Shown piece after piece: positions 19,241 through 24,165 of a DNA stretch of 64,000 bases. Each line of letters begins with the position of its first letter. Positions within the stretch are counted from its first letter, which is position 1. The DNA comes from Nakamurella aerolata. Its GTDB lineage: Bacteria > Actinomycetota > Actinomycetes > Mycobacteriales > Nakamurellaceae. The notes beneath the pieces are model-generated. The model was not told where the DNA came from. It searched no databases and saw only the letters and a program-made list of their open reading frames with translations. Position numbers and translations under genes: made by a program. The DNA is taken from contig NZ_JABEND010000004.1 of the NCBI RefSeq assembly GCF_013002705.1, positions 186,001-250,000 of the forward strand. The letters are read 5' to 3'.

Positions 19241-19558
19241 TCAGCCGCGCGGACGGCCGAGCTGGCCGCGGCCCATCGACAGCAGCATCATGCCGAGGTC
19301 GGTGCCGGCCGGGCCGAGGTCGCGGAACTTGTCGAGCACCGCCATCTCGCGGGAGTAGACCACCCGCGGGCCGCCCATGGCTTTGCGGGCCGCGCCGATC
19401 GCGTGCGAGATGGCGGTGCGGCGCTGGATCAGCCGGACCAGTTCGCTGTCGATGGCGTCGATCTCCACCCGCAGCTCGTCGATCCCGGCCTGATCGGACG
19501 GAACCTCGATCTGCGGCAGCGGTGCTGGTTCGGCGTCCATCAGCGTCCTCGTTCTCAT
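19241..19558 (-). CDS. Chorismate mutase, AroQ-delta type
   Basis: 105 residues, all-helical chorismate mutase making prephenate for phenylalanine and tyrosine. IDELRVEIDAIDSELVRLIQ is helix 1, RRTAISHAIGAARKAMGG carries the active-site Arg/Lys residues, and VVYSREMAVLDKF follows. It matches the short intracellular mycobacterial enzyme (Rv0948c), whose activity depends on docking with DAHP synthase through its C-terminus. The equivalent tail LLSMGRGQLGRP is kept here, so the same control is likely. The start at 19558 has AGGAGA seven bases upstream; a later ATG at 19540 is possible. An aromatic leader peptide and terminator-like hairpin lie upstream on the same strand. Confidence 0.9.
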   Translation of the reverse strand: MRTRTLMDAEPAPLPQIEVPSDQAGIDELRVEIDAIDSELVRLIQRRTAISHAIGAARKAMGGPRVVYSREMAVLDKFRDLGPAGTDLGMMLLSMGRGQLGRPRG

Positions 19559-19628
19559 GGCTGTTCTCCTGGTTCGTGACGGAAACTTCGGTGGTGGGCC
19601 GAGATCCGCGGCGAGCCAGGCAAGACAA

Positions 19629-19659
19629 GAGCCCCGGATCGCTGAGGATCTCGGGGCTC
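19629..19659 (-). terminator. Attenuator terminator hairpin before chorismate mutase
   Basis: On the minus strand GAGCCCCG (19659-19652) pairs with CGGGGCTC (19636-19629); the stem continues through GATC/GATC with one bulge. It is followed by TTGTCTTG, a moderately T-rich tail. It lies between the leader peptide stop and the chorismate mutase start. Its 5' arm contains CCGAGATCC (19654-19646), complementary at eight of nine bases to GGATCCCGG within the leader ORF (19706-19698), the proposed antiterminator. Confidence 0.65.
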
Positions 19660-19674
19660 GTGACGGGTGGTGTG

Positions 19675-19743
19675 TCAGGACACGCGAACGTCAGGCACCG
19701 GGATCCGGTACCCATAGAAAAATCGCTGCACGAGGCGGGACAC
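19675..19743 (-). CDS. Aromatic leader peptide of the chorismate mutase attenuator
   Basis: A 22-codon ORF starting GTG at 19743 encodes (M)SRLVQRFFYGYRIPVPDVRVS and stops at 19677-19675. Codons 8-12 are Phe-Phe-Tyr-Gly-Tyr (TTT TTC TAT GGG TAC, 19722-19708), the end products of the pathway the downstream gene feeds. The Tyr-12 codon lies in a hairpin GGTACCGG-ATC-CCGGTGCC (19712-19694, one G-T pair). Ribosome stalling at these codons would expose GGATCCCGG to pair with the terminator's 5' arm. The layout is a classic ribosome-mediated attenuator. Initiation may be leaderless, since a TCTACT -10-like box lies six bases upstream. Confidence 0.7.
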   Translation of the reverse strand: MSRLVQRFFYGYRIPVPDVRVS

Positions 19744-19749
19744 GCCTCA

Positions 19750-19779
19750 AGTAGACCACACGCCCGCAGAACGTGGGAA
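19750..19779 (-). promoter_or_regulatory. Candidate promoter of the leader/chorismate mutase transcript
   Basis: On the minus strand TTCCCA (19779-19774) and TCTACT (19755-19750) are separated by 18 bases. The -10-like box ends six bases before the leader GTG, which would make the leader mRNA start at its own initiation codon. Both boxes match consensus only partly. Confidence 0.4.
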
Positions 19780-19874
19780 GCCCCTCCCGCGATGTGGAAT
19801 CGACCTGTGGACACCTGTTGTCGCCCCGCCGCCGAACGCATCAGCACCGCCGCTGTCGGGGTAAAGTTGCCCCG

Positions 19875-20080
19875 CTTGATCAGCGCGAGCGTGCGAGCGG
19901 AGATCGAGCACGAAGGGTGGGCCCCGTTCGTTGATGAGCGGGAGTCCACAACAGAAGGGTGGGCCCCGTTCGAAGGCGAACGGAGTTCGCCGGCTTGATC
20001 AACGCGAGTGTGCGAGCGGAGATCGAGCACGAAGGGTGGGCCCCGTTCGTTTTGTGGACGGAGTCCACAAAACGAAGGGG
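19875..20080. repeat. 119-bp direct repeat with embedded hairpins
   Basis: Two copies start at 19875 and 19994 with CTTGATCA(G/A)CGCGAG(C/T)GTG and run through GAAGGGTGGGCCCCGTTCG; a third copy of the GAAGGGTGGGCCCCGTTCG block lies at 19954-19972. Each GTTCG block is followed by sequence able to fold back on it. The most perfect pairing is 20046-20058 with 20064-20076 (13 bp, loop CGGAG); another is CCGTTCG/CGAACGG at 19966-19983. No protein is encoded. With the flanks, 19780-20301 holds no gene that I can support. It may be a dispersed family of hairpin elements. Confidence 0.7.
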
Positions 20081-21447: not shown

Positions 21448-24165
21448 ATGAGTTCTCTGTTCGATCTTTCCCCCGAATCCCCGGAATCCCCGGGATCCTC
21501 TGAATCCCCCGAATCCTCTGAACGCTCGGGATCCTCGGCTTCGGGGGCGCCCGTCGGCCGCAAGCCCGCCCGCACCGCCGGGCCGGGTCGCGTCGGCGAC
21601 CGCACGTCAGAGGGCGAGGCGCTGCTGGCCGGACTCAATCCGCAGCAACGCGCCGCGGTCACCCACCGCGGCTCGCCGCTGCTGGTGGTGGCCGGTGCCG
21701 GTTCGGGCAAGACCAGAGTGCTCACCAGGCGGGTGGCCTATTTGCTGGCCGCCGGCGGGGCGCACCCGGGGGAGATCCTGGCGATCACCTTCACCAACAA
21801 GGCCGCCGCCGAGATGAAGGAGCGGGTGGCCGACCTGGTGGGTGGCCGGGCCAGGGCGATGTGGGTGTCGACCTTCCACTCCATGTGTGTGCGCATCCTG
21901 CGCGCCGAGGCCGCCCACCTCGACATGAAGAGCTCGTTCACCATTTACGACGCCGCCGACACCCAGCGGCTGGTCGCCATGGTCGCCGGCGACATGGAGC
22001 TCGACACCAAGCGCACCACCGCCCGCACGCTGGCGGCGGCCATCTCGAATCTGAAGAACGAGCTGATCGACCCGGCCACCGCTGCCGAGCGCGCCGAGAA
22101 CGACTTCGAGAAGATCACCGCCGAGGTGTACGCCGGCTACCAGGCCAGGCTGCGGCAGGCCAACGCCTTCGACTTCGACGATCTCATCATGGAGACCGTC
22201 GCGCTGCTGCAGACCTATCCGGCGGTGGCCGAGCACTACCGCCGCCGGTTCCGGCACGTGCTGGTCGACGAATACCAAGACACCAACCACGCCCAGTACA
22301 TGCTGGTCCGCGAGTTGGTGGGCGGAACGGCACCGGAGGTCGACGACGGCACGGACGCACCGGCCCCCGCGGTACCGCCGGCCGAGTTGGTGGTGGTGGG
22401 CGACGCCGACCAGTCGATCTATGCCTTCCGCGGCGCCACCATCCGCAACATCACCGAGTTCGAGCGGGACTATCCGGACGCCCGTACCATCCTGTTGGAG
22501 CAGAACTATCGCTCCACCCAGAACATCCTGACCGCGGCCAACGCGCTGATCTCGCGGAACCGCGACCGCCGCGCCAAGAACCTGTGGACGGCTGAGGGCG
22601 ACGGCGTCAAGATCGTCGGCTACGTCGCCGACACCGAACACGACGAGGCCCGTTTCGTTGCAAGGGAGATCGACGCGCTGGTCGACGACGGCGCCGCCCG
22701 CTACTCCGACGTCGCTGTTTTCTACCGCACCAACGCCGCCTCCCGCGCCATTGAAGACATCTTCGTCCGCACCGGCATGCCGTACCGGATCGTCGGCGGG
22801 GTGCGCTTCTACGAGCGCAAGGAAGTGAAAGACGTGCTGGCCTATCTGCGGGCGGTCGCGAACCCGGCGGACGAGGTGTCGCTGCGCCGGGTGCTGAACA
22901 CCCCGAAGCGCGGCATCGGCGATCGCGCCGAGGCGCAGGTGGCGCTGTTCGCCGAGCAGGAACGCATCCCGTTCGCCGACGCGTTGCGCCGGGTCGACGA
23001 GATCCCGGGCATGGCAACGCGTTCGGTGAAGGCGATCAGCGGCTTCAACGAGCTGATGGCCTCGCTCACCAAGGTGATCAGTGACCCCGACCATCCGGAG
23101 TCGGTCGACGGCGACCCTGCGGACCTTGCCACCGAAGTGCTGGAGCAGAGCGGTTACCGGGCCGAGCTGGCCGCCAGCGACGACCCGCAGGACGGTTCGC
23201 GGCTGGAGAACCTCGAGCAGCTGGTGACCGTGTTGCGGGAGCAGACCGAGTTGCTGCTGGCCGCCCGCCAGGCCGCCGCCGAGGGCCTGGCCGAAGACGG
23301 TTCGCTCCCTGAGGAGTCCACCGCCACCGGTACGGCAGCCGGCAGCACCGACGGCGCAGCGGCGGCCGGCTCGATCGCCGACGAGGTGGAACCGCCGCCG
23401 AACCCGGTGGCCCCGACGGACGAGGAACTCGGCGGCGCCGCCGCCGAAAGTGAGGAGCTGGCCAGGCCGCTCGACGGCCCAGGGATGCTCGCCGGGGTGC
23501 TCGAGCAGCTGTCGCTGGTGGCCGATGCCGACGCCGTCCCGGACTCCGACGACGGTGTGGTGACGCTGATGACGCTGCACACGGCGAAGGGGCTCGAGTT
23601 CCCCGTGGTGTTCCTCACCGGCATGGAAGACGGCATCTTCCCGCACCAGCGGGCGCTGGGCGACGACAAGGAACTCGCCGAGGAGCGGCGCCTTGCCTAC
23701 GTCGGCATCACCAGGGCCCGGCACCGGCTGTATCTGAGCCGGGCGGTCAGCCGATCCGCTTGGGGACAGCCGGGTTCCAACCCGCCCTCCCGGTTCTTGG
23801 ACGATGTTCCCGATGAGGTACTCGACTGGCGCCGGATGGTGGAACACCGGCCGTTCGTCGAGCGCGACGACTTCTTCTCAGGACGGGCCTTCGGCTCCGG
23901 CCGCGGCAACGACTCGGGTGGGCGGTCGTCTCCGGTGACGGCCTCGCGGTTCGGGCAGCGGCACCCGGCGCGGGGGGCCGGCGTCGGCAACAAGCCGCCG
24001 CTCGAACTGGCGGCCGGGGACAAGGTCTCGCACGACAAGTACGGCCTCGGCACCGTGAAATCCGTTGAGGGAGTGGGGGTTCGGGCCACCGCGACCATCG
24101 ATTTCGGCTCGTCCGGCACGGTCCGGTTGATGCTGATCGGCGGCGTCCCGATGGTCAAGCTCTGA
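21448..24165 (+). CDS. pcrA: ATP-dependent DNA helicase UvrD/PcrA
   Basis: 905-residue superfamily 1A 3'-5' helicase used in nucleotide excision repair and fork maintenance. After a Ser/Pro/Glu repeat tail (residues ~8-35) come LNPQQRAAVTHRGSPLLVVA (Q motif), GAGSGKT (motif I, about residue 85), AITFTNKAAAEM (Ia), VDEYQDTN (II), GDADQSIYAFRGA (III), QNYRST (IV), LMTLHTAKGLEFPVVF (V) and YVGITRARHRLY (VI). Between ~610 and 690 sits an acidic/Ala-Gly insert before motif V. The C-terminal Tudor-like segment KVSHDKYGLGTVKSVEG, which contacts RNA polymerase in PcrA, is intact. The chorismate mutase gene nearby mirrors the mycobacterial Rv0948c-uvrD1 order. Confidence 0.96.
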   Translation: MSSLFDLSPESPESPGSSESPESSERSGSSASGAPVGRKPARTAGPGRVGDRTSEGEALLAGLNPQQRAAVTHRGSPLLVVAGAGSGKTRVLTRRVAYLLAAGGAHPGEILAITFTNKAAAEMKERVADLVGGRARAMWVSTFHSMCVRILRAEAAHLDMKSSFTIYDAADTQRLVAMVAGDMELDTKRTTARTLAAAISNLKNELIDPATAAERAENDFEKITAEVYAGYQARLRQANAFDFDDLIMETVALLQTYPAVAEHYRRRFRHVLVDEYQDTNHAQYMLVRELVGGTAPEVDDGTDAPAPAVPPAELVVVGDADQSIYAFRGATIRNITEFERDYPDARTILLEQNYRSTQNILTAANALISRNRDRRAKNLWTAEGDGVKIVGYVADTEHDEARFVAREIDALVDDGAARYSDVAVFYRTNAASRAIEDIFVRTGMPYRIVGGVRFYERKEVKDVLAYLRAVANPADEVSLRRVLNTPKRGIGDRAEAQVALFAEQERIPFADALRRVDEIPGMATRSVKAISGFNELMASLTKVISDPDHPESVDGDPADLATEVLEQSGYRAELAASDDPQDGSRLENLEQLVTVLREQTELLLAARQAAAEGLAEDGSLPEESTATGTAAGSTDGAAAAGSIADEVEPPPNPVAPTDEELGGAAAESEELARPLDGPGMLAGVLEQLSLVADADAVPDSDDGVVTLMTLHTAKGLEFPVVFLTGMEDGIFPHQRALGDDKELAEERRLAYVGITRARHRLYLSRAVSRSAWGQPGSNPPSRFLDDVPDEVLDWRRMVEHRPFVERDDFFSGRAFGSGRGNDSGGRSSPVTASRFGQRHPARGAGVGNKPPLELAAGDKVSHDKYGLGTVKSVEGVGVRATATIDFGSSGTVRLMLIGGVPMVKL

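Follow-up and report, generated by a model that had tools for sequence, protein, structure and literature searches.

Chorismate mutase stands at the branch point towards phenylalanine and tyrosine, and its control has been studied mainly as allostery inside the complex of the enzyme with DAHP synthase. The locus described here raises the question of whether the gene is also controlled at the level of transcription, by a leader peptide rich in codons for the two end products. The window analysed is a stretch of 64,000 nucleotides from Nakamurella aerolata (contig NZ_JABEND010000004.1, positions 186,001 to 250,000), in which a chorismate mutase (CM) gene of the CM_2 type, encoding 105 amino acids, lies on the minus strand at 19241-19558 (PF01817, E = 3.7e-11). 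It is the only PF01817 match in the genome, and its nearest relatives among solved structures are the intracellular chorismate mutases (Rv0948c, E = 2.1e-22). A preliminary description, made from the sequence alone, had proposed that the four elements of ribosome-mediated attenuation lie in order upstream of this gene; direct reading bears this out, and all the coordinates given there, read on the minus strand like those of every leader feature below, are correct to within one base.

The surroundings of the gene can be described briefly. Near CM, at 21448-24165, lies a 905-amino-acid ORF that, judged by eye, resembles a UvrD/PcrA-type helicase; in Mycobacterium tuberculosis uvrD1 lies near Rv0948c in a similar way. 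Just upstream of the putative attenuator promoter, the stretch 19865-20070 contains an 87-nt direct repeat with 86% identity and a 30-nt unit present three times (77-100%), and an 18-nt inverted repeat lies at 20042-20080, also upstream of that promoter. Rfam release 15 recognises no family in the window at gathering thresholds, and 19550-19800 has no match even when E values as high as 1 are admitted. The accessible portion of PMC10977890 terms rv0948c, the cytosolic CM of M. tuberculosis, an 'M-ES gene', taken as essential in vitro.

The first element is a leader ORF of 22 codons plus stop, (M)SRLVQRFFYGYRIPVPDVRVS, which runs from 19743 to 19675 with a GTG start (19743-19741) and a TGA stop (19677-19675), and similar leaders are found in the genus and the order. 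It carries a CGA-TTT-TTC-TAT run, of which TTT (19722-19720), TTC (19719-19717) and TAT (19716-19714) are the putative sensor codons (Phe-Phe-Tyr, 19722-19714), followed by GGG (19713-19711) and TAC (19710-19708). A census of 812 short ORF starts (ATG or GTG, 10-40 codons, both strands of the window) returned two with at least four Phe or Tyr codons, three of them consecutive; each of the two belongs to this leader (starts 19743 and 19731); the Phe-Phe-Tyr-Gly-Tyr ORF is thus confirmed as the only one of its kind among them. Across 113 leaders the first sensor codon encodes Phe in 110 and the third Tyr in 108, the two being retained together in 106, and the remaining leader residues are less well retained. 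The second sensor codon is Phe in 82 leaders, Tyr in 15, Ser in nine and another residue in seven. The second Tyr of FFYGY is a Tyr in only 77 of the 113, being replaced elsewhere by His, Thr, Asn, Ile, Arg, Cys, Ser, Pro or Asp, so that the earlier proposal of a Phe/Tyr sensor stands for the Phe and Tyr of the sensor triplet and has to be given up for the last Tyr. The conserved unit, as read from the collected leaders, is Phe-(Phe/Tyr/Ser)-Tyr-Gly, and because its Phe and Tyr codons are conserved we infer that both amino acids are sensed.

The choice of codons at this site is also skewed. Of the 113 leaders, 104 use TTT for the first Phe, and the Arg codon preceding it is CGA in 61 of 66 (the two codons together occupy 19725-19720 in the window), although both are otherwise rare in 50 long ORFs from 27 named loci (16 of 786 Phe codons; 4.6% of Arg codons). 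Behind this preference may lie either a use of rare codons where the ribosome would stall or a constraint on the run of T.

A -10-like hexamer, TCTACT, lies at 19755-19750, 6 nt before the leader GTG, and marks a putative promoter. Under a relaxed rule, fixed only after the misses of a stricter one had been viewed, 101 of the 113 leaders have such a hexamer 6-7 nt before an in-frame ATG or GTG (shuffled mean 1.8, maximum 5); the strict rule finds it in 96 of 113 (shuffled mean 3.3, maximum 9). The hexamer of the window fails the strict rule and passes the relaxed one, and a generic promoter scan called no promoter at the window leader. The spacing suggests that the leader ORF is leaderless, with a predicted transcript start at or next to 19743.

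The second element is a hairpin, here called 1:2, with the sequence GGGTACCGG-ATC-CCGGTGCCT at 19713-19693; the preliminary description had placed a pause hairpin at 19712-19694. The window copy has nine pairs, and the leader RNA is more stable than all of 200 dinucleotide shuffles (z = -3.95). Its evolution can be followed in an alignment (A4) of 88 of the 89 distinct sequences among the 113 leaders, one with a shorter loop (L173) having been left out. Treated as a ten-pair helix, it has 92.6% of its cells paired compared with 86.3% after shuffling, a percentage biased towards the stem by the model and pattern used for collecting the leaders, both of which contain it. Both sides are changed in 34 cells (shuffled mean 8.0), and covariation scores 0.211 compared with 0.121 after shuffling; in each of these three measures none of 500 shuffles reached the observed value. 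Five pairs show a double change, an unremarkable number (shuffled 4.0; 156 of 500 as high), and slid versions of the partner strand gave lower values in all measures.

These compensatory changes bear on the question of what the peptide itself might do. In Nakamurella, Pseudonocardia and Rhodococcus the peptide is strikingly conserved, with Pro-Val-Pro after its aromatic residues, and it could be imagined that the nascent FFYGYRxPVPV peptide itself binds a drug, or free Phe or Tyr in the manner of TnaC, and so stalls the ribosome without any sensing of tRNA charging. However, the residues behind Phe-x-Tyr-Gly change and the stem stays paired: GYRxPVP becomes GNRTPAP with the compensated strands GGGAACCGG/CCGGCTCCC, and the compensated strands GGCTACCGG/CCGGTAGCC give PVA with the stem again intact. 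The hairpin likewise remains paired while the second Tyr codon inside it varies, and the synonymous codons of the stem are nearly fixed, with TAC for 76 of 77 Tyr, CCG for 83 of 83 Pro and CCC for 83 of 88 Pro. Since the residues behind the sensor vary while hairpin 1:2 is kept, the conservation of GYRxPVP looks mainly like an RNA constraint; an arrest peptide, disfavoured here by the way in which the peptide tracks the stem, is in our judgement very improbable.

Transcription attenuation, the preferred reading, would place a terminator between the leader and the CM gene. A terminator-like hairpin with a bulged A, GAGCCCCG(A)GATC...GATCCGGGGCTC, can be read directly at 19659-19629, followed by the T-rich tail TTGTCTTGCC at 19628-19619, as had been proposed. 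A perfect GC-rich stem of at least six pairs is present in the terminator region of 109 of 112 leaders (mean 42.2 and maximum 53 in 20 shuffled rounds), and the 10 nt past the stem contain a mean of 4.94 T in these 109 leaders compared with 1.82 in random 10-mers. The T tail of the window copy is imperfect, and a terminator scan of the window made no call for the bulged terminator of the leader. Such a tail would suit translation attenuation or coupling, in which the leader would govern how ribosomes reach the start of CM and the hairpin would not act as a terminator; a mechanism of this kind is described for mycobacterial cysteine uORFs in the available parts of PMC13236596. Against it stand the T-rich tail across the leaders, well above chance, and the position of the hairpin, which ends 70 nt upstream of the CM ATG and excludes the AGGAG at 19570-19566. 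We regard this possibility as very unlikely.

Attenuation of transcription also calls for an antiterminator, for which the candidates are strand 2, GGATCCCGG (19706-19698), and strand 3, CCGAGATCC (19654-19646), the latter forming the 5' arm of the terminator-like hairpin. The reported complementarity of the two at eight of nine positions is correct, and strand 2 of the window pairs equally well (8/9) with the terminator 3' arm, CCGGGGCTC. Among 41 leaders, strand 2 pairs at no fewer than 8/9 positions upstream of the terminator 3' arm in 38, and in 18 it pairs to at least this extent with the 3' arm as well. The strand 2/3 duplex has a mean energy of -17.85 kcal/mol within its own leader and -15.44 when arms are swapped between leaders (best of 50, -15.92), a gap inflated by the relatedness of the leaders. 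Taken singly, the leaders give strand 2 a low specificity, with 40 of 111 beating 95 of 100 shuffles. Because strand 2 proved less specific, our confidence that this is a classical ribosome-mediated transcription attenuator of the CM gene was lowered slightly, to a probability of roughly 0.86.

In such an attenuator, transcription would begin at the leader GTG or right beside it, and leaderless translation would set in with RNA polymerase still close by. A shortage of charged tRNA-Phe or tRNA-Tyr would make the ribosome stall at TTT-TTC-TAT and mask the 5' arm of hairpin 1:2; strand 2, released in this way, would pair with strand 3 before the terminator 3' arm is made, no terminator would form and CM would be transcribed. 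When both tRNAs are charged, the ribosome would reach the stop codon and hairpin 1:2 would form in its wake, whereas in leaders whose stop comes early strand 2 would be covered by the ribosome; in either case the terminator would form and transcription would end before CM.

The leader RNAs were folded in the corresponding states; the terminator finder and leader length left 110, 111, 111 and 112 of the 113 leaders for equilibrium folding, truncated RNA, strand 2/3 energies and terminator stem, respectively. For RNA truncated just before the terminator 3' arm, the 5' arm was counted as captured when its best-paired base paired with the 1:2 region at p >= 0.5, a coarse measure by which, among 111 leaders, capture is predicted in 110 when the ribosome sits on Phe-1 or Phe-2, in 109 when it sits on Tyr and in 46 without a ribosome. 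Blocking hairpin 1:2 is thereby predicted to expose strand 2. In the truncated window RNA the pairing of the 5' arm is 1.0 for each sensor codon, 0.52 in the free RNA and 0.0 once the ribosome has reached the stop codon. In that last state 95 of the 111 leaders are still predicted to pair the 5' arm with the 1:2 region, which in this model runs against a simple on/off picture. Equilibrium folding of the whole leader did not separate the five ribosome states and was dropped as a test of state: the terminator prevails in 104-107 of 110 leaders in each. Since it prevails at equilibrium in every state, the attenuation model needs kinetic, co-transcriptional folding, and such kinetics, together with a crude ribosome mask, may explain both this misfit and the one at the stop codon.

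How widely the element is shared was judged first by its own genus. All 17 genus genomes searched have CM, the simple leader motif lies upstream of it in 15, and a leader matching the covariance model R2 does so in all 17; a second CM copy in one of these genomes (L019) has no leader motif. Within the window genome, the next-best model match (E = 0.002) was judged to be chance and rejected as a further leader copy, and six such matches had no CM in their flank. A scan of named genomes with the hairpin DNA pattern TWYGGGTACCGGNNNCCGGTGCC gave 48 stretches, of which 40 have CM downstream by tblastn, in Pseudonocardia, Rhodococcus, Actinomycetospora, Mycobacterium, Mycobacteroides, Nakamurella and other genera. 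Two more (L063, L077) have leader and terminator and end before CM, and six (L060, L073, L093, L094, L096, L100), in which the leader-terminator-CM layout is absent, were set aside as chance matches. Alignment A3 retains 27 of the 48 after the removal of 12 near-duplicates, three records of the window's own genus, which was already represented, and the six chance matches; the same-genus leader L017, near-identical to L018, was also omitted.

Model R2, built from 41 leaders and not containing the CM gene, includes sequences from some lineages of the order and matches 210 of 249 genomes in a sample of the order, mycobacteria included, at E <= 0.01; it finds no match in the other 39, and PF01817 is matched in 240 of the 249. 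Of the best 150 R2 matches listed, 148 lie just upstream of a co-directional CM gene (63 matched to CM first, then 85 of the other 87); in the two exceptions (G597, G512) the match is near a contig end and the downstream side is missing. A conserved leader ORF followed by its own terminator-like hairpin might in principle be no more than a small protein gene, unrelated to the control of CM. This adjacency argues otherwise, as do the leader residues, which are the end products of the CM pathway, and the alternative pairing, which is better within leaders than between them; the small protein is an extremely improbable explanation. The attenuator reading, by comparison, gains from the alignment of orthologous upstream regions that the preliminary description had called for, in which the conserved Phe/Tyr leader ORF and the covarying stem recur. 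Among 15 CM loci from genomes with a weak or no match, six carry divergent aromatic leaders (L161, L162, L164, L166-L168), eight have no aromatic leader and one is ambiguous (L163). The idea that the window leader represents a distinct lineage of attenuator has to be abandoned; judged by these searches, the leader is an order-wide element with gaps.

Class-wide, an earlier model, R1, had matches at E <= 0.001 in 105 of 394 genomes, many of them by chance, and of 20 regions taken from these matches 11 have an aromatic leader before a CM or DAHP synthase gene; L137, L138, L146, L147, L149 and L151-L154 were rejected as plain terminators, coding regions or tRNA regions. Outside the order, aromatic leaders stand before a CM-like gene in L140-L143 and L145, where L141 and L142 meet the Pfam cut-off, L145 lies below it at 23 bits, L140 was called by tblastn at the same place (L034) and L143 from its reading frame. 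They precede a DAHP synthase gene in L135, L139, L144 and L148. One of these, L139 (G304, family f41), has a CM-type FFYGYR leader before the DAHP synthase gene rather than CM. In family f20, the leaders L135, L136, L144 and L150 combine Trp, Phe and Tyr codons (MRTAWSFWYGDGP, MRTAFWFWYGDGP), and a three-amino-acid attenuator of DAHP synthase is possible there; the enzyme was identified by family search for L135 and L144, and L136 and L150 have the same leader as L135.

The aroR attenuator upstream of aroF in Corynebacterium glutamicum was reportedly described by Neshat et al. in 2014. In the sections available of PMC11802643, PMC11525245 and PMC4046766, aroR is a Phe-Tyr-Phe leader before aroF, a DAHP synthase gene, and on this evidence it appears to be the nearest reported case to the CM leader. 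The preliminary description had mentioned an attenuated CM gene in corynebacteria; the C. glutamicum case described in these sections is aroR, and that statement is to be corrected accordingly. The two systems share a leader peptide with Phe and Tyr codons, an aromatic-pathway gene, an actinobacterial host and, as proposed here for CM, ribosome-mediated attenuation; they differ in that aroR controls DAHP synthase whereas the window leader precedes CM, and in that aroR, according to the passages available of PMC11802643, responds to limitation of Phe and not of Tyr. A genome inferred to be Corynebacterium-like has an RFYF leader before a PF00793 DAHP synthase gene and no clear leader at CM. In the window genome (95%-complete) the gene downstream of the leader is CM and not aroF as with aroR, PF00793 has no match, and the 520 nt preceding the type II DAHP synthase match hold no aromatic leader.

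Other known systems resemble the CM leader in part. The pheL/pheA leader of Escherichia coli, as outlined in the same portion of PMC11802643, joins a leader peptide and Phe-tRNA charging to a CM enzyme (CM-prephenate dehydratase), much as is proposed here, but the enzyme is fused, only Phe is sensed and the leader is proteobacterial, differences drawn from its description and not from its sequence. Actinobacterial ilvB leaders (ilvB1NC of M. tuberculosis) also have a uORF with end-product codons and competing antiterminator and terminator, and differ in pathway and leader (PMC13236596 and PMC1262725, in the parts available). T-boxes before chorismate mutase genes, such as the Trp T-box of Streptococcus thermophilus, place a CM gene under tRNA-charging control but through direct binding of tRNA to RNA, with no leader peptide (PMC2494555, from its accessible sections). 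Among amino acid biosynthesis pathways, Seliverstov 2005, in the sections available, reports conserved structures upstream of Trp, Cys and Leu genes only (plus ileS T-boxes), and no Phe/Tyr attenuator in Actinobacteria (PMC1262725). The main text, as far as available, of the mycobacterial small-ORF and attenuation papers PMC13236596, PMC9094748, PMC4633059 and PMC11133741 contains neither 'Rv0948c' nor 'chorismate mutase'. Searches of the open-licence literature found no CM attenuator in Actinobacteria and no paper with the leader peptide strings.

The element is real, conserved and probably ordinary in mechanism, and the open-licence papers searched describe none at this gene. It seems somewhat probable that this is an old Phe and Tyr attenuator of the stand-alone CM, present in most of the order from Nakamurella and Pseudonocardiaceae to mycobacteria, with a leaderless leader and a rare-codon stall at CGA-TTT-TTC-TAC, and that the attenuated step falls on CM or on DAHP synthase according to the actinobacterial lineage. 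If this is true, transcriptional control by a compact leader of about 115 nt would be added to the regulation of chorismate mutase. The covariance model can serve for annotating such leaders, and the leaders form a natural series for following the joint evolution of an RNA stem and the peptide that overlaps it.
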